Assembly: GCA_001767455.1 (NCBI GenBank)
Contig: MELC01000042.1
Span: 1-53,253 of the forward strand
Origin: Acidobacteria bacterium RIFCSPLOWO2_12_FULL_66_21
GTDB lineage: Bacteria > Acidobacteriota > Vicinamibacteria > Vicinamibacterales > 2-12-FULL-66-21
DNA: 53,253 nt
Reading direction: 5' to 3'
The position numbers and the translations under genes are program-made. Within the stretch, counting starts at the first letter, position 1. Every line of letters starts with the position of its first letter. This document shows, piece by piece, positions 5,569 through 46,150 of the stretch. The notes under the pieces are model-generated. The model saw only the letters and a program-made list of their open reading frames with translations, did not search any database and had not been told where the DNA came from.

Positions 5569-5683
5569 TGTCAACTTCCAACGGCCAACTCCCAACTCCC
5601 AAGTGGCTCAGTTCCGGAGTTGGAAACTGCGGGGTTGGGAGTTGGCAAGTTGGGAGTTTGAAGTTGGGAGTTGGGAGTTGACA
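5569..5683. repeat. Inverted heptamer-repeat element (GGGAGTT type)
   Basis: The left arm (5569-5602) is built of CCAACTC-like units and the right arm (5633-5683) of GGGAGTT-like units. The outer ends are exact complements, TGTCAACT at 5569 and AGTTGACA at 5676-5683. The element fills most of the 137-base gap between the DUF58 gene and the VWA gene and could fold as a long hairpin. No T-run follows, so it is not a standard terminator. Confidence 0.85.
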
Positions 5684-18617: not shown

Positions 18618-18638
18618 TCTCTATTCCTGATCGGGTCC

Positions 18639-18713
18639 CGTGGCTCGTGGCTCGTGGCTCGTGGCTCGAACGAGGTCGATCTGCGAGCAACGAGCAACGA
18701 GTAACAAGCAACG
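18639..18713. repeat. Inverted heptamer element (CGTGGCT / CGAGCAA)
   Basis: The left arm (18639-18668) has four CGTGGCT units. The right arm (18684-18713) has four units of CGAGCAA type. Together they form an imperfect stem with a 15-base loop, between the FmdB-type gene start and the DUF885 gene stop. Confidence 0.85.
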
Positions 18714-18717
18714 ATGT

Positions 18718-23642: not shown

Positions 23643-23743
23643 ATTAGTGAGTTAGTGAGTTGAGGCGCCCCGAGCCGCATGCCGTGCGTCGGGACGAAAT
23701 CCAGCAACCCACCAATTCACCAATTCACCAATTCACCAATTCT
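23639..23743. repeat. Inverted repeat element (GTGAATTA / ACCAATTC)
   Basis: The left arm starts at the glmU stop (TGAATTAGTGAGTTAGTGAG) and the right arm (23709-23742) has four ACCAATTC units. The spacer of about 45 bp is GC-rich. The element occupies nearly the whole glmU-glmS gap, leaving 14 bases before the glmS start. Confidence 0.85.
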
Positions 23744-23756
23744 CGGGGAACACACC

Positions 23757-26708: not shown

Positions 26709-26899
26709 TCAAACTCCAAATTCCAAACTCCAAACCTCAAACCAACGCCAAACGCCAAATTCCAAATTCCAAATTCCAAATGCCAAACGCCAAACGCCAA
26801 ACGCCAAACGCCAAATTAGACTCGATTTCCAGGAGCTTGGGGTTTGGATTTTGCGGTTTGGAGTTGGTTTGGAGTTTGAAGTTTGGAGTTTGGAGTTCG
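26709..26899. repeat. Long heptamer element (CCAAACG/CCAAATT and TTTGGAG)
   Basis: The left arm (26709-26816) consists of about 14 heptamers, CCAAATT, CCAAACT and CCAAACG. The right arm (26836-26899) holds the complementary TTTGGAG/TTTGGCG type. A spacer of about 20 bases lies between. This is the largest such tract in the window and fills the leuA-leuB gap, ending at the leuA stop. Confidence 0.9.
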
Positions 26900-26902
26900 A
26901 TT

Positions 26903-29412: not shown

Positions 29413-30009
29413 CTATGACCAGCCGCGCAGGTACGGCAGGCGGCGCGCGACCGACTCGACCTCGTCGTACTTGTCCAGCAGCAATGCGGTGGCGTCCCAG
29501 GTGCCGTCCAGAAACGACTGGCGAGCCGCGGCAGGCATCGTGAGGGCAAACGACCGGTCGCCCGACACGACATGGAGGGCGTCCAGCGAGAGGCGCAGCT
29601 CACGCCGGGGATCGCGCTCGGCTTGCTGCATGAGCTCTTCGATCACCGCGCGGGCGGCCGTCAGGCAGGGCATGCCAAGCGCCACGGAATTGCCGAAGAA
29701 GATCTCCGAGAAGGACTCGCCGACAACGGCGCGGATGCCCCACCGGCGGATCGCCTGCGGCGCATGTTCTCTCGATGAACCGCACCCGAAATTGGCGTTC
29801 ACGAGCAGAATCGTCGCGCCGGCATGAGCGGGATTGGCGAAGGGATGATCCCCCGCCTGGGCGCGGTCGTCCTCGAACAGGTGCCGCTCCAACCCCTCGA
29901 ACGTGATCGCGCGCAGGAATCTCGCCGGGATGATGCGGTCCGTGTCGATGTTCCCGCCGCGAAGCGGAATCGCGGTGCCTTCGACGGCCGCAATCCTGTC
30001 AATCGGCAT
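29413..30009 (-). CDS. leuD: 3-isopropylmalate dehydratase small subunit
   Basis: The protein has 198 residues; ATG 30009 gives [20 protein letters not shown]. The signatures [13 protein letters not shown] and [15 protein letters not shown] are diagnostic of the aconitase swivel domain. It partners LeuC to interconvert 2- and 3-isopropylmalate. The start codon lies within the leuC 3' end (an 11-base overlap), so translation is probably coupled. Length is normal. Downstream lies the large nested palindrome, which could terminate the leuCD transcript. Confidence 0.96.
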
Positions 30010-31408
30010 GCGCGAACTCCCGCACGTCTGCAACTTCACCCGCAATCGCGGCGGCCGCGACCATTGCGGGGCTCATCAACAGGGTTCGCCCGGTTGGGCT
30101 CCCCTGCCGTCCTTTGAAGTTGCGGTTCGACGATGACGCGCAGACCTGGGTGCCCTCGAGGCGATCCGGATTCATGGCCAGGCACATGGAGCATCCGGCG
30201 CCCCGCCATTCGAACCCGGCCTCCGTGAACACCCGGTCGAGCCCCTCCCGCTCCGCCGCCAGTCTGACCGCCTGCGATCCCGGCACCACCAGCGCCGTCA
30301 CGTGCGCCGCGACATGCCGCCCGCGTATGATCGTCGCCGCTTCGCGCAGATCCGACAACCGGGCGTTCGTGCACGACCCGATGAACGCGACGTCGATCTT
30401 CGTGCCGCGAATCGGCTGCCCGTCGCGCAGCCCCATGAAATCGAGCGCCTCACGCAACGACGGCCGATCCGCCGCCTCTGCCTCATCGACGCGCGGCACC
30501 GTCTCGCTCACGTGCACCGACTGCCCGGGGTTGATTCCCCAGGTCACCGTCGGTTCGATGGCCGCCGCGTCAATCTCCACCTCGCCGTCATATCGCGCGT
30601 CCGGATCGGACGCCATCGAGCGCCACCAATCGCACGCCGCTTCGAACTCGTCCCCATCGGGTGCGAAGCGGCGGCCGCGCAAGTAGTCGAACGTCACCTG
30701 GTCGGGGTTCACGTAGCCGGCCCTCGCGCCCCCTTCGATCGACATGTTGCAGATCGTCATCCGCTCGTCCATCGACATGCGCTCGACCGTGTCGCCGGCA
30801 TACTCGTACGCGTAGCCGACGCCGCCGCTGACGCCAAGCCGCCGGATGATGTCGAGGATCACGTCCTTCGCGTACACCCCGCGCCCGAGGCGGCCCGACA
30901 CTCTGATGCGCCGGACCTTCAGCGGATCGAGCGCCAGGCACTGTGACGCGAGGACGTCCCGCACCTGCGACGTGCCGACGCCGAACGCGATCGCGCCGAA
31001 CGCGCCGTGCGTCGACGTGTGGCTGTCGCCGCACGCGATCGTCATGCCTGGCTGCGTCAGTCCCAGCTCCGGACCGATCACGTGCACGATCCCCTGTGCG
31101 CCGCCGCTGATGTCGAAGAGGCGGATGCCCGCCGCGCGGCAGTTGCGCTCGAGCGCCGACAGCATGTCCTCGGCCATCACGTCGAGGAACGGCCGTCGCT
31201 GATCGCGCGTGGGAACGATGTGATCGACGGTGGCGATCGTGCGCTCCGGAAAGCGCACGCCCCACCCGCGCGCCCGCAGCATCTCGAAAGCCTGGGGCGT
31301 CGTCACTTCATGAATCAGATGAAGGCCGATAAAGAGCTGGGTCTGACCGTTTCCGAGCGCCCGAACCGTGTGGGCGCGCCAGACCTTCTCGAACAGAGTG
31401 GCTGACAT
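29999..31408 (-). CDS. leuC: 3-isopropylmalate dehydratase large subunit
   Basis: The protein has 469 residues from ATG 31408 ([20 protein letters not shown]). Aconitase-fold signatures are present: [36 protein letters not shown], and the [4Fe-4S] cysteines in [16 protein letters not shown] and [15 protein letters not shown]. It forms isopropylmalate isomerase with LeuD, encoded directly after it. The spacer to the upstream heptamer tract is about 25 bases and no clear promoter was found. Confidence 0.97.
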
Positions 31409-31433
31409 GAACGCTTGATCGTACTACGAGACC

Positions 31434-31528
31434 ACAGCTCGCAGCTCGCAGCTCGCAAATCGCAGCTCGGCGGTCGGGGCTCGGGGCTCGGCACTCGTAG
31501 CTCGTGGTTCGTGGCTCGTGGCTCGTCC
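31434..31528. repeat. Heptamer tract (CGCAGCT, then CGTGGCT), left arm of an inverted pair
   Basis: About twelve heptamers drift from CAGCTCG to GGGGCTC to CGTGGCT types. The last forty bases are the inverted counterpart of 32006-32048, so the two tracts bracket the S23 pseudogene. Confidence 0.85.
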
Positions 31529-31555
31529 CTACGCCCCAACCATTCGGGAGGCACT

Positions 31556-31610
31556 CTTGCCTAATCCATGTGCGCAGTCCCGCCGGTCAGGTACTTAGCG
31601 TGATTAGGCG
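31556..31610. other. Short inverted repeat upstream of the S23 remnant
   Basis: GCCTAATC (31559-31566) faces GATTAGGC (31601-31608) across about 35 bases. It could be a hairpin or an old element end. No other signal is seen between the heptamer tract and the pseudogene. Confidence 0.4.
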
Positions 31611-31660
31611 CGAAATCTTCGACTTGGCGTCTTTCTGGCGTTGCAGAAAGTGAGATCCCG

Positions 31661-32005
31661 ATGGCGAGCTCAGCGATTCGGAGATTCCAGGACCTGGATG
31701 CATGGCAGGTCGCAAATGGATTTGGCAGTATCGACGTATGCCCTGGCAGCGCGCCTGCCATCCAACGAGCGTTTTGAGCTGAGCTCACACATGCGACGGG
31801 GCTGTTCGTCCGCCATCTGCGAATTGCCCTGGGGTCGACCGGAGAGCTGGAGACACTGCTCGCTCTGGCGGTACGGGTTCATCTGCTTTCAAACGCGGAC
31901 GTGGCGATTGCCGAAGAGCAGCTGACGCGAGCTGGCCAGTTGCTCCATGGATTGGTACGCTCGCTCGAGATAAGGCGAGCCGCAGGCTTCCCGATCGTCG
32001 GGTAG
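31661..32005 (+). pseudogene. Frameshifted four-helix-bundle (S23 / rRNA-IVP type) gene
   Basis: Three pieces in different frames rebuild one protein. ATG 31661 gives ASSAIRRFQDLDAWQVA. A frame change near 31712 gives MDLAVSTYALAARLPSNERF and ELSSHMRR. After further changes near 31797-31835 comes STGELETLLALAVRVHLLSN, then VAIAEEQLTRAGQLLHGLV, to the TAG at 32003-32005. This is the familiar layout of 23S rRNA intervening-sequence-type four-helix-bundle proteins of about 120 residues, some of which sit in rRNA introns and many of which are orphan. At least two frameshifts and a small deletion make it inactive. Sequencing error is a less likely explanation, since several events are needed. Confidence 0.75.
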
Positions 32006-32048
32006 ACGAACGACCCACGAGCCACGAGCTACGAGCCACGAGCCCCGA
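32006..32048. repeat. Heptamer tract (CGAGCCA), right arm of an inverted pair
   Basis: Five units of ACGAGCC/ACGAGCT type begin one base after the pseudogene stop. They mirror the end of the tract at 31434-31528. Confidence 0.85.
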
Positions 32049-32052
32049 CTGT

Positions 32053-32058
32053 TATACT
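32053..32058 (+). promoter_or_regulatory. Candidate -10 box of pcrA
   Basis: TATACT stands 18 bases before the pcrA ATG. No convincing -35 is present, since the repeat occupies that position. Confidence 0.4.
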
Positions 32059-32075
32059 GAAGCTCCTCTCGAACA

Positions 32076-34355
32076 ATGGACTTCCTGAACCGGCTCAACC
32101 CCGAACAACGTGAGGCCGTGCTGCACCGCGACGGGCCGCTGCTGATCCTGGCCGGGGCCGGCTCGGGCAAGACGCGCGTCATCACGTTCCGGATCGCGTA
32201 CCTCATCGGCGACGGGCATGCCGAGCCGGGCCAGGTCCTCGCGGTGACCTTCACGAACAAGGCCGCGCAGGAGATGCGGGAGCGCGTGGAGGCGCTCATC
32301 GGCTCGGAGGCGTCCGGTGTGTGGTTGTCCACCTTTCACGCGCTGTGCGCGCGGCTGCTGCGCCGCGAGGCGCCGAAGATCGGGCTGTCGCGCGACTTCG
32401 TCATCTACGACTCCTCCGACCAGGTCGCCGTCGTCAAACAGGCCGAGCGCGAGCTCGGCATCGACGACAAGTTCATCCCCCCACGCGCGGCGCTGGCGCG
32501 CATCAGCCAGGCCAAGAACCGCATGGAAGGGCCGGAGACGCTGCGCGCGACGTGGAACGTCCGCGACGAGCAAATCGCGAAGATCTACGAGCGCTACGTC
32601 GAGGCCCTGAAGGACTCGAACGCGCTCGACTTCGACGACCTGCTGCTGAAGACCGTGGAGCTGTTCGAGACGTCGGAGCAGACGCGCGACTTCTACGCGC
32701 GCAAGTTCAAGTACGTAATGGTCGACGAGTACCAGGACACCAACCGCCCCCAGTACATGCTCATCCGGCGCCTGGCCGGCCTGCATCGCAACGTCGCCGT
32801 CGTCGGCGATCCCGATCAGTCCATCTACAAGTGGCGTGGCGCCGACCTTCGAAACATCCTCGACTTCGAGCAGGATTTCGGCGAGGCGCGCGTCGTCAGG
32901 CTCGAGCAGAACTACCGGTCCACGCAGGTCATCCTGGACGCCGCCTCGGCCGTCATCAGCCAGAACCGGAACAGGAAAGAGAAGCGCCTCTGGACCGATC
33001 GCAAGGGCGGAAACAAGATTGTCTACTTCCGCGGCGGTGACGAGCTCGAGGAGGCCGACTTCATCTCGCGATCGATCAAGGGCGCCCGCGCCGAGGACGT
33101 CGACGCGACCATCGCTGTGCTGTATCGGACGAACGCGCAGTCGCGGGCGGTTGAAGAATCGCTCATGCGCGACGGCGTCCCCTACAAGATCATCGGCGGC
33201 GTCAGATTCTACGAGCGCAAGGAGATCAAGGACGCGCTGGCGTACTTGAAACTCATCATCAACCCGCACGACGATGTGAGCCTGCGCCGGGTGATCAACG
33301 TGCCCGCGCGCGGCATCGGCAAGGGCGTGATGGATTCGCTCCAGGCGATCGATCCGAACGCTGTGGTCGCCGAGGCGCCGCCGCTGATTGCGGCCGGCCT
33401 CCAGGAAATCAGTTCCGCCCGCTCGCTATGGGCGAAGCTGGTCTACGCCGTCGAGGACGGCAAGCTGACACCGCGCGCTGCCGCGTCGCTGCGCGTCTTC
33501 CGCGACCTGATCGTCGGATTGAGCGACGTTGCACGACACGATGCCGTTGCCATCACCATCGGGAAAACGCTCGATCGGACGGGCTACCTGCAGGATCTCC
33601 GCGACGAGAACACGGAGGAGGCCAACGAGCGGGTCGAGAACCTGATGGAGCTCGTGTCGGCGGCCGGAGAATACGAAACACGCGACCAGGAGCCGTCGCT
33701 TGGCGGCTTCGTCGATCGGCTGTCGCTGCTCTCGGAGGCCGACGAGGAGTCAGGGACGCGCGAGGCCAAGGTCTGGATGATGACGATGCACGCGGCCAAG
33801 GGGCTGGAGTTTCCAGTGGTCATCATCGCGGGGCTGGAAGAGGGATTGTTCCCGCACTCGAGATCGAGCGAGGACGATGACGAGCTGGAGGAAGAACGCC
33901 GCTTGTGCTACGTCGGCATGACCCGCGCGCAGTCGCAGCTCATTCTGACCGGGGCGGCACGGCGCCGCGTGTTCGGCGAATATCATTCGACCGACCCGTC
34001 GCGCTTCGTGAACGAGATCCCGCCGGAACTGGTCGAGGCCGTGGCGCCAGCCTACGCGACCGCTTATCAGAGCGCGCTCGGCCACGAGCATTACGCGTTC
34101 AGGACGAATCCTTACGGACGGAAGGGGCGCGGCACCGGGCGCGTCCGCGAGACGGAGGGGGCCTACAAGTACGAGGACGACGATCAGTCGGCGCCGGGCA
34201 TCAGGCCCGGCGCGCGCGTCCGCCACCCGCAGTTCGGCGTCGGGAGCGTCATCTCGGTCGAGGAGCACAACGACGATCTGAAGATCACCGTCCGCTTCAA
34301 CACGGTGGGGGTCAAGAAGCTGCTGGCCAAATACGCCAAGCTGGAGCTCGCATGA
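32076..34355 (+). CDS. pcrA: ATP-dependent 3'-5' DNA helicase, UvrD/PcrA family
   Basis: The protein has 759 residues from ATG 32076. All superfamily 1A motifs are visible: LNPEQREAVLH, Walker A AGAGSGKT, TFTNKAAQEMRER, VDEYQDTN, VGDPDQSIYKWRGAD, LEQNYRST, TMHAAKGLEFPVV and YVGMTRAQ. The C-terminus has the Tudor-like module that contacts RNA polymerase (PGARVRHPQFGVGSVISVEE). It acts in nucleotide excision and mismatch repair and in removal of stalled complexes. Placement between leu and gyr genes is not operonic. Its stop is followed immediately by an inverted repeat shared with gyrA. Confidence 0.96.
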   Translation: MDFLNRLNPEQREAVLHRDGPLLILAGAGSGKTRVITFRIAYLIGDGHAEPGQVLAVTFTNKAAQEMRERVEALIGSEASGVWLSTFHALCARLLRREAPKIGLSRDFVIYDSSDQVAVVKQAERELGIDDKFIPPRAALARISQAKNRMEGPETLRATWNVRDEQIAKIYERYVEALKDSNALDFDDLLLKTVELFETSEQTRDFYARKFKYVMVDEYQDTNRPQYMLIRRLAGLHRNVAVVGDPDQSIYKWRGADLRNILDFEQDFGEARVVRLEQNYRSTQVILDAASAVISQNRNRKEKRLWTDRKGGNKIVYFRGGDELEEADFISRSIKGARAEDVDATIAVLYRTNAQSRAVEESLMRDGVPYKIIGGVRFYERKEIKDALAYLKLIINPHDDVSLRRVINVPARGIGKGVMDSLQAIDPNAVVAEAPPLIAAGLQEISSARSLWAKLVYAVEDGKLTPRAAASLRVFRDLIVGLSDVARHDAVAITIGKTLDRTGYLQDLRDENTEEANERVENLMELVSAAGEYETRDQEPSLGGFVDRLSLLSEADEESGTREAKVWMMTMHAAKGLEFPVVIIAGLEEGLFPHSRSSEDDDELEEERRLCYVGMTRAQSQLILTGAARRRVFGEYHSTDPSRFVNEIPPELVEAVAPAYATAYQSALGHEHYAFRTNPYGRKGRGTGRVRETEGAYKYEDDDQSAPGIRPGARVRHPQFGVGSVISVEEHNDDLKITVRFNTVGVKKLLAKYAKLELA

Positions 34356-34460: not shown

Positions 34461-36960
<2,500 letters not shown>

Positions 36961-37084
36961 TCGTGAATTCGTGAATTGGTGAATTGGTGAGTTGGTGAGT
37001 TGGTGAATGGGTTGCTGTATTGATGCCTCGGCGCCGGGAAGAACACCGGACGGCAATTCACCAGCTCACGAATTCACCACGTCA

Positions 37085-46026: not shown

Positions 46027-46150
46027 GAAATTGGTGAGTTGGTGAATTGACGACCTTACCAGAATTCACCAATTCACTACTACTTCACCAATTCGCCAAG
46101 TCACTAATTCACCAACTCACTAATTCACCGATTCACTGATTCACCAACTT
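46027..46150. repeat. Inverted element (GGTGAATT / AATTCACC) before mnmE
   Basis: A short left arm (46031-46051) and a long right arm of about ten AATTCACC/AACTCACT units (46062-46149) fill the whole 126-base gap between jag and mnmE. The right arm ends within one to two bases of the mnmE ATG. Confidence 0.88.

Follow-up and report, generated by a model that had tools for sequence, protein, structure and literature searches.

S23-type four-helix-bundle genes share a common anatomy across bacteria, in which the gene is enclosed by inverted arms built of tandem repeats. The locus described here lies in a window of 53,253 nt (G000:C42:1-53253) from an acidobacterial genome of 6.48 Mb, and it is likely a decayed copy of a compact mobile unit consisting of a heptamer arm, one S23 gene and an inverted arm. 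The arm-S23-arm arrangement is real and general; its mobility and the role of S23 remain unproven. Heptamer repeats are over-represented in many genomes and have been little studied (PMC4692102). Linking them to S23 genes provides a testable object: its ends are defined, one genus offers empty sites, and a relative of the protein has a solved structure. If this reading is right, the S23 gene-in-hairpin is a tiny, largely overlooked mobile unit.

Table 1. Parts of the broken S23 unit, in positions of the window.
Feature	Position	Strand	Basis
Left arm, GCTCGNN tandem heptamer tract	31434..31526	+	
S23 remnant, N-terminal stretch (MASSAIRRFQDLDAWQVA), first frame	31661..31714	+	By eye; no Pfam match when alone
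S23 remnant, second frame, PF05635 positions 9-42	31713..31814	+	Profile match
S23 remnant, back in first frame, PF05635 positions 58-105	31805..31948	+	Profile match
Stop codon of the last S23 frame	32003..32005	+	
Right arm, inverted GCTCGNN tract	32010..32048	-	

Both heptamer tracts of the window locus (Table 1) are enclosed by leuC (29999-31408, minus strand) and pcrA (32076-34355, plus strand), gene names that were assigned from the reading frames without a database search. A TATACT box of the next gene, recognized by eye, directly follows the end of the right arm. Ungapped inverted alignment pairs the arms over 40 nt with 85% complementarity and over 53 nt with 79%, and in an RNA fold of the locus they were paired, with a z of -5.6, better than 20 of 20 shuffles. 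As a whole, the window holds 11 period-7 tracts, and none were found in three block-shuffled versions. Profile searches with PF05635 matched two fragments of the gene, the first with 20.4 bits (its limits in the window are approximate) and the second with 29.1 bits. Both fall under the cut-off of 33.8 bits because the gene is broken, so that membership of PF05635 is met through two sub-cut-off fragments; the relative at the same site in G004 scores 107 bits. Our own profile of 18 S23 proteins also matched both pieces (E of 2e-13 and 1e-8). Profile positions 43-57, which include the conserved SIPSNIAEG core, are absent from the remnant. Since the matches lie in two frames and these positions are missing, the window gene is frame-broken and internally deleted. 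The first-pass annotation, made from the sequence alone, had claimed that inverted heptamer tracts bracket a decayed S23 gene and that only this frameshifted gene lies between them. Both claims held, with the tract coordinates right, and the decay of the cargo is borne out for the window copy by its two frames and missing core; the internal deletion comes in addition. With regard to 23S rRNA intervening sequences (IVSs), the locus meets the criterion of an S23 frame enclosed by complementary ends and does not meet that of an rRNA location. Within window positions 31000-32500, Rfam gave a single match, below threshold, in which an archaeal snoRNA family aligned to the minus strand of pcrA.

Next, S23 loci were compared by an arm score, defined as the best inverted local alignment of the left versus the right flank, with a threshold of 35. 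The same-order sample, drawn from the window genome and its relatives, comprised 74 S23 loci, 73 of them distinct (L051 is the same locus as L077). When 320-bp flanks were taken from the profile ends, inverted arms were present at 55 of 71 loci (L035 and L054, with a flank under 150 bp, were left out), versus 1 of 400 control ORFs (drawn from a pool of 691) and 4 of 400 mispaired flanks. Similar results were obtained with 250-bp flanks taken from the gene ends: 43 of 69 loci reached 35 (L035, L054, L002 and L050 left out), whereas none of 250 other ORFs from these loci and none of 200 mispaired S23 flanks did. We also scanned named genomes with an S23 alignment and kept the best 80 of 586 confirmed loci, from which L154, L161 and L169 were left out for short flanks. 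Here, 52 of 77 loci from many phyla reached 35; among the controls, 1 of 254 ORFs did so, as did 6 of 400 mispaired flanks. The sources of the 80 kept loci include Planctomycetota, Chloroflexi, Acidobacteria, Proteobacteria, Bacteroidetes, Clostridia and Verrucomicrobia, as well as a Nodularia cyanobacterium and a Kaiserbacteria genome. In sets restricted to the best-scoring matches, arms were seen at 15 of 23 new S23 loci from six named genomes (21 of 29 when six repeats of earlier loci are included; L256 left out for a short flank), at 16 of 25 gammaproteobacterial loci (L337-L340 left out for short flanks, L322 as the same locus as L176) and at 22 of 30 loci of one gammaproteobacterial family. 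Intact S23 genes with similar arms in relatives, which the first-pass annotation had proposed as a check, were thus found far above control ORFs, and the case it named as a refutation, S23 homologues never flanked by such tracts, failed, arms being common at S23 genes. Under the threshold remained 16 of 71 same-order and 25 of 77 named loci. These are of two kinds, some with visible tracts and others without matched arms (for example, L050, L091 and L093). None of 40 S23 loci compared with Rfam at gathering scores matched an rRNA family, so a location of these units in rRNA was rejected.

The unit measures approximately 0.5-0.7 kb, and the S23 frame takes up most of the space between the arms. 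Among 107 arm pairs from the same-order and named sets, the period was a multiple of 7 in 76, of 8 in 12 and of 9 in 5; another value was found in 5, and no period was clear in 9. The repeat unit is therefore mostly 7 nt, with longer periods in L080 (18 nt) and L083 (20 nt), and arm sequence varies between elements. The median arm length was 36 nt in the same-order set and 32 nt in the named set. From the left arm end to the profile match the medians were 87 and 32 nt, respectively, and from the match to the right arm start 64 and 21 nt. In the 5' arm, G exceeded C in 85 of the 107 pairs and C exceeded G in 16. The motif G[TG][AG]G occurred in 54 of 123 left arms versus 10 of 123 on the opposite strand; a fixed terminal tetranucleotide was rejected, since this excess may reflect only the G-rich 5' arm. 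S23 is flipped in L065 and L074 and is not flipped in L047. Three of the four S23 loci of the window genome have inverted arms, each of a different unit, GCTCGNN at the window locus, AAACTCC at L003 and AGCTTCC at L001; in the fourth, L002, which scored 16, the contig ends only 158 bp away on one side. Likewise, each armed S23 of the Clostridia genome G064 has its own repeat unit, two of the units being alike. This genome (L235-L264) holds 16 S23 matches, and most of those that were read are armed. A Planctomycetota S23 unit (L115:1736-2630) has arms of approximately 247 nt, with an inverted score of 326.

At one site in Mesorhizobium, the whole arm-S23-arm unit is either present or absent. 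A single S23 unit was followed through 81 Mesorhizobium genomes, its own included, and 43 of these were classified; L268, L274, L286 and L292 were left out because the flank did not align on both sides, and L291, L293 and L294 duplicate L307, L305 and L308. S23 with octamer arms was found in 24 of the 43 (truncated in G069), and 9 carried an S23-less hairpin of another unit, AGCGAAT in six of them. The remaining 10 were empty, with 10-16 bp between the aligned flanks. Twenty of the 43 genomes were chosen by spacer size and the others were not sampled at random, so the proportions of the states carry no meaning. The states were scattered on a weak flank tree, with 15 changes versus a shuffled mean of 17, a pattern that could fit frequent turnover, recombination or poor resolution. 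When the site itself is counted, 11 of 14 of the genomes contained AGCGAAT tracts. The first-pass annotation had also asked for empty sites and for target duplications at the arm ends. Filled and empty versions of one site were met in Mesorhizobium and were not clean at the window's site. Inspection of the Mesorhizobium site by eye revealed no clear target duplication; the repeat-built ends hamper judgement.

A less simple picture was obtained at the window's own site. The genes leuC and pcrA adjoin in several relatives, and two of 11 leuC/pcrA spacers hold an S23 gene (G004 and G013), with arm units other than the window's; an S23 profile search of the other nine found none. The G002 spacer has inverted GGATGAC arms without S23, that of G010 has one tract, and those of G006, G007, G008 and G001 have no tract. 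In G004, a small native gene also lies inside the arms, and the same gene is arm-less in G006, G008 and G001; a variant of it was seen by eye between the arms of G002. Given this native gene inside the arms of G002 and G004, a single arm-S23-arm insertion is insufficient there. Possibly, the arms formed around the spacer or S23 came later, and it is conceivable that arms and S23 did not arrive together at this site. Arms without S23 as the ancestral state, which the first-pass annotation had named as a refuting case, are not excluded here, G002 being armed without S23. A native frame starting MSKNNNVNPGQYK or near it was observed between leuC and pcrA in G006, G010, G001, G008 and G004 (L096-L099 and L104), and no frame of this type was seen by eye in the window. 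A candidate clean empty site near pcrA in G055 was rejected, its neighbourhood being too different.

To what extent units descend with their sites was evident from a tree of 72 S23 proteins, in which seven of nine same-site groups form one clade each, with groups C, D, H and I fully supported. The pcrA-upstream and E groups each fall in two places, and a single origin at these sites remains possible, not being ruled out by well supported branches. Since same-site groups cluster, units persist at a site, and many S23 units are old and vertical; in the gammaproteobacterial family, 15 of 30 S23 loci sit at one shared site. We compared the score of each arm with its own partner and with orthologous arms. 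The own partner matched better in groups D (47/19), G (70/32), B (41/27), C (51/35), E (35/22) and I (34/22), and the two scores hardly differed in F (38/39) and H (54/49). Site group A was not used, its score being inflated by shared pcrA sequence in opposite orientation. For non-syntenic S23 pairs of at least 60% identity, arm sequence was shared (score of at least 30) in 6 of 27, and for pairs under 40% identity in approximately 1%. Over short distances, arms and gene thus remain linked, and the arms then change fast. No near-identical S23 copies were found at different sites of one genome, the paralogues being diverged.

Tracts and hairpins with the units of S23 arms and without an S23 gene are dispersed in S23-bearing genomes and are nearly missing from the sampled S23-free relatives. 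Short tandem tracts with a unit of 7 or 8 are abundant in the window genome, where 444 kb contained 61 period-7 tracts and the shuffled sequence contained none, and S23-less tracts far outnumber S23 units; the GCTCG-heptamer pattern alone gave 569 matches with at most one mismatch, overlaps counted. The count of 82 tracts in this genome includes the S23 arms and a 9-mer array in L005. Among matching tract pairs within 1.5 kb in the window genome and other S23-bearing stretches, 21 were inverted and 10 direct, and 8 of the 10 direct pairs came from that one array. Of 76 window-genome tracts away from S23 genes, 31 matched one of the genome's three own S23 arm pairs. In a control with three arm pairs drawn from relatives, the mean was 3.9 matches and the highest 26, none of 100 draws reaching 31. 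In 16 of the 18 S23-free relatives, which were sampled, one tract was found in 306,513 bp, versus 32 tracts in 400,000 bp of 20 S23-bearing relatives. Any tract was present in 1 of 16 S23-free versus 12 of 20 S23-bearing genomes (p of 0.0013). Further S23-bearing stretches (L211-L214, 8 tracts in 80 kb) are outside these 20.

A similar association was seen in the gammaproteobacterial family. Arms of GGGAATC had been predicted from the Xanthomonas literature before any were inspected, and of the 14 closest relatives found for XCC0516, an S23 protein of Xanthomonas, 13 had arms of GGGAATC, GGGATTC or close variants. Because all share one site, these arms represent one event, not thirteen. All 14 genomes with GGGANTC-like S23 arms contained GGGAWTC tracts, compared with 5 of the 20 other genomes of the family (p of approximately 1e-5, kinship uncorrected). 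Those five have the tracts without an XCC0516-like match, which counts against the link with S23. G544, not among the 34 family genomes, has an XCC0516-like S23 at the shared site with a sub-threshold arm score of 29 (L354).

Three S23-less inverted heptamer hairpins were observed in the window at 5572-5680, 18631-18714 and 26710-26900, with loops of 45, 11 and 44 nt, respectively. Tracts of an octamer family (CACCAATT) lie at 23698-23747, 36956-37013 and 46084-46149, and one CACCAATT octamer tract is at the start of a gyrA-like frame, a gene name given by eye.

Gain and loss of arm-S23-arm as a whole unit is the mechanism best supported by these data and probably the correct one, with movement unobserved. 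Points against it are the lack of near-identical copies within one genome, the vertical descent of many units, the S23 loci below the arm threshold, the native gene inside the arms of G002 and G004, and the weak Mesorhizobium flank tree. The suggestion of the first-pass annotation that arms and cargo form a small mobile unit largely held, and more widely than proposed. In the mechanism we infer, the transcript would form a long stem whose loop contains the S23 message, as in 23S rRNA intervening sequences, and the S23 protein may bind this stem, an inference from its kinship with Avd and from the arrangement, without binding data. The unit would insert into, and be lost from, intergenic and intra-operon sites, neither movement nor excision having been observed. 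The S23-less hairpins would be its non-coding relatives, spread or kept in trans, like MITEs or REPINs that rely on a coding partner. Tandem slippage and arm-to-arm copying may keep the arms matched as their sequence drifts. No enzyme has been identified for the cutting and joining that such a unit would need. Y1_Tnp was found in 35 of 42 S23-bearing versus 7 of 18 S23-free genomes (Fisher test; kinship and genome size uncorrected). It was not found in 7 of the 42 S23-bearing genomes, including G018, which has the most S23 matches (17). A Y1 transposase as the required mover was therefore rejected and is a lead only.

We considered four rival explanations. In the first, the hairpin comes first: the dispersed element is the tandem-heptamer hairpin, and its loop is where S23 genes settle, in the manner of intervening sequences replacing tetraloops of 23S rRNA helices. 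In its favour are the excess of S23-less tracts in the window genome, the armed G002 spacer without S23 and the position of rRNA intervening sequences at helix tips (PMC4990558). Against it, S23 keeps related arms across non-syntenic sites, and arms and S23 are jointly absent in the 10 empty Mesorhizobium genomes, as expected of self-armed arrival, although loss of a whole filled hairpin would look identical. We regard this rival as unlikely. The second, also improbable, holds that nothing moves: S23 with its arms is a long-established chromosomal gene, the flanking hairpin serves to regulate or process the S23 message, and slippage and template switching make the arms repetitive and matched. 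It is supported by the vertical persistence of units at many sites, by the 15 loci that share a single site, and by the match of an arm to its own partner with change between orthologous sites (groups D, G and B). However, the empty, hairpin-only and S23 states are interleaved within Mesorhizobium, dispersed tracts share units with S23 arms, and own and cross arm scores are near equal in groups F and H.

The third rival is a retroelement aided by a host reverse transcriptase, as Avd aids diversity-generating retroelements, and rests on the resemblance of PF05635 to Avd, which is essential to retrohoming (PMC10053308). We consider it very unlikely: RVT_1 occurred in 14 of 42 S23-bearing versus 6 of 18 S23-free genomes (p of 1), and none was found in the window genome despite its four S23 loci. 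A resident reverse transcriptase as the mover was largely refuted by this lack of association, and the criterion of a diversity-generating retroelement was not met. Finally, that common intergenic repeats flank S23 by chance is suggested only by the many GCTCG tracts of the window genome and is most improbable, since only 1 of 400 and 1 of 254 control ORFs were bracketed and arms hold in genomes with other units and in many phyla; chance is refuted for S23 genes generally and is not formally excluded for the window copy alone.

The closest known object to the whole-unit model preferred here is the 23S rRNA intervening sequence, in which an S23 gene likewise lies in the loop of a long inverted-repeat stem. 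In the IVS of Coxiella burnetii, two or three tandem GACAGAT heptamers, depending on the strain, directly precede the S23 start (PMC4990558), and rRNA insertions of CPR bacteria can likewise contain S23 frames (PMC11270868). However, IVSs are located within rRNA genes and excised by RNase III, whereas the units described here are outside rRNA, and the IVS literature examined describes no tandem-repeat build of both arms, S23-less relatives or intergenic spread. The function and origin of rRNA intervening sequences have been called unclear (PMC4990558). Dispersed heptamer repeats (GGGAATC in Xanthomonas, GGGGA(C/T)T in Nostoc, TAACTGA in Beggiatoaceae) have the same unit length and intergenic spread. 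Cyanobacterial STRRs are also dispersed heptamer repeats. Two Xanthomonas genomes contain 70 and 75 convergent inverted heptamer pairs; 90% of the Xanthomonas repeats reportedly have the same neighbouring genes in two species, and association with known mobile elements was generally not seen (Rehm 2015, PMC4692102), which counts against mobility. Unlike the arms described here, these repeats carry no link to S23 in the published accounts (PMC4692102, PMC4679880): the main text of the former mentions neither XCC0516 nor S23, and that of the latter does not mention S23. REPIN/RAYT and MITE systems combine a coding partner with many dispersed non-coding hairpins. The likeness is one of outline, with S23 as the coding partner and the S23-less hairpins dispersed, but S23 is not a known nuclease and its arms are tandem arrays without a fixed sequence. 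Avd is a related four-helix-bundle protein (PMC10053308), and solved sequence relatives of S23 exist (2gsc and 2rld); S23 differs in having no association with a reverse transcriptase. A search of the open-access literature (titles and abstract openings, without preprints and with few subscription papers) found no report that joins S23 to heptamer arms outside rRNA.

A bolder reading, for which the evidence falls somewhat short, is that S23 is the coding partner of bacterium-wide hairpin elements, with the dispersed heptamer repeats, which have long lacked an explanation, as their ends and S23-less offspring and intervening sequences as copies that landed in rRNA. In this scenario S23, for which no enzymatic function is known, would promote spread through binding to its own hairpin, while the cutting and joining would be done by an enzyme, possibly of Y1 type, borrowed from the host or from a different element.

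S23 genes are widespread and, in plasmid records, are usually labelled only 'four helix bundle protein' or 'S23 ribosomal protein'. On cyanobacterial plasmids, arms were present at 6 of 8 S23 loci picked from 30 records, two of the loci being identical. A Calothrix plasmid pair proved uninformative on transposition because the shared stretch is far longer than the unit. Three of the plasmid genes each lie between neighbouring genes of one system, namely, two ribonucleotide reductase genes (L378), cas6 and cas4 (L379), and cas10 and a Cmr3-family gene (L382).
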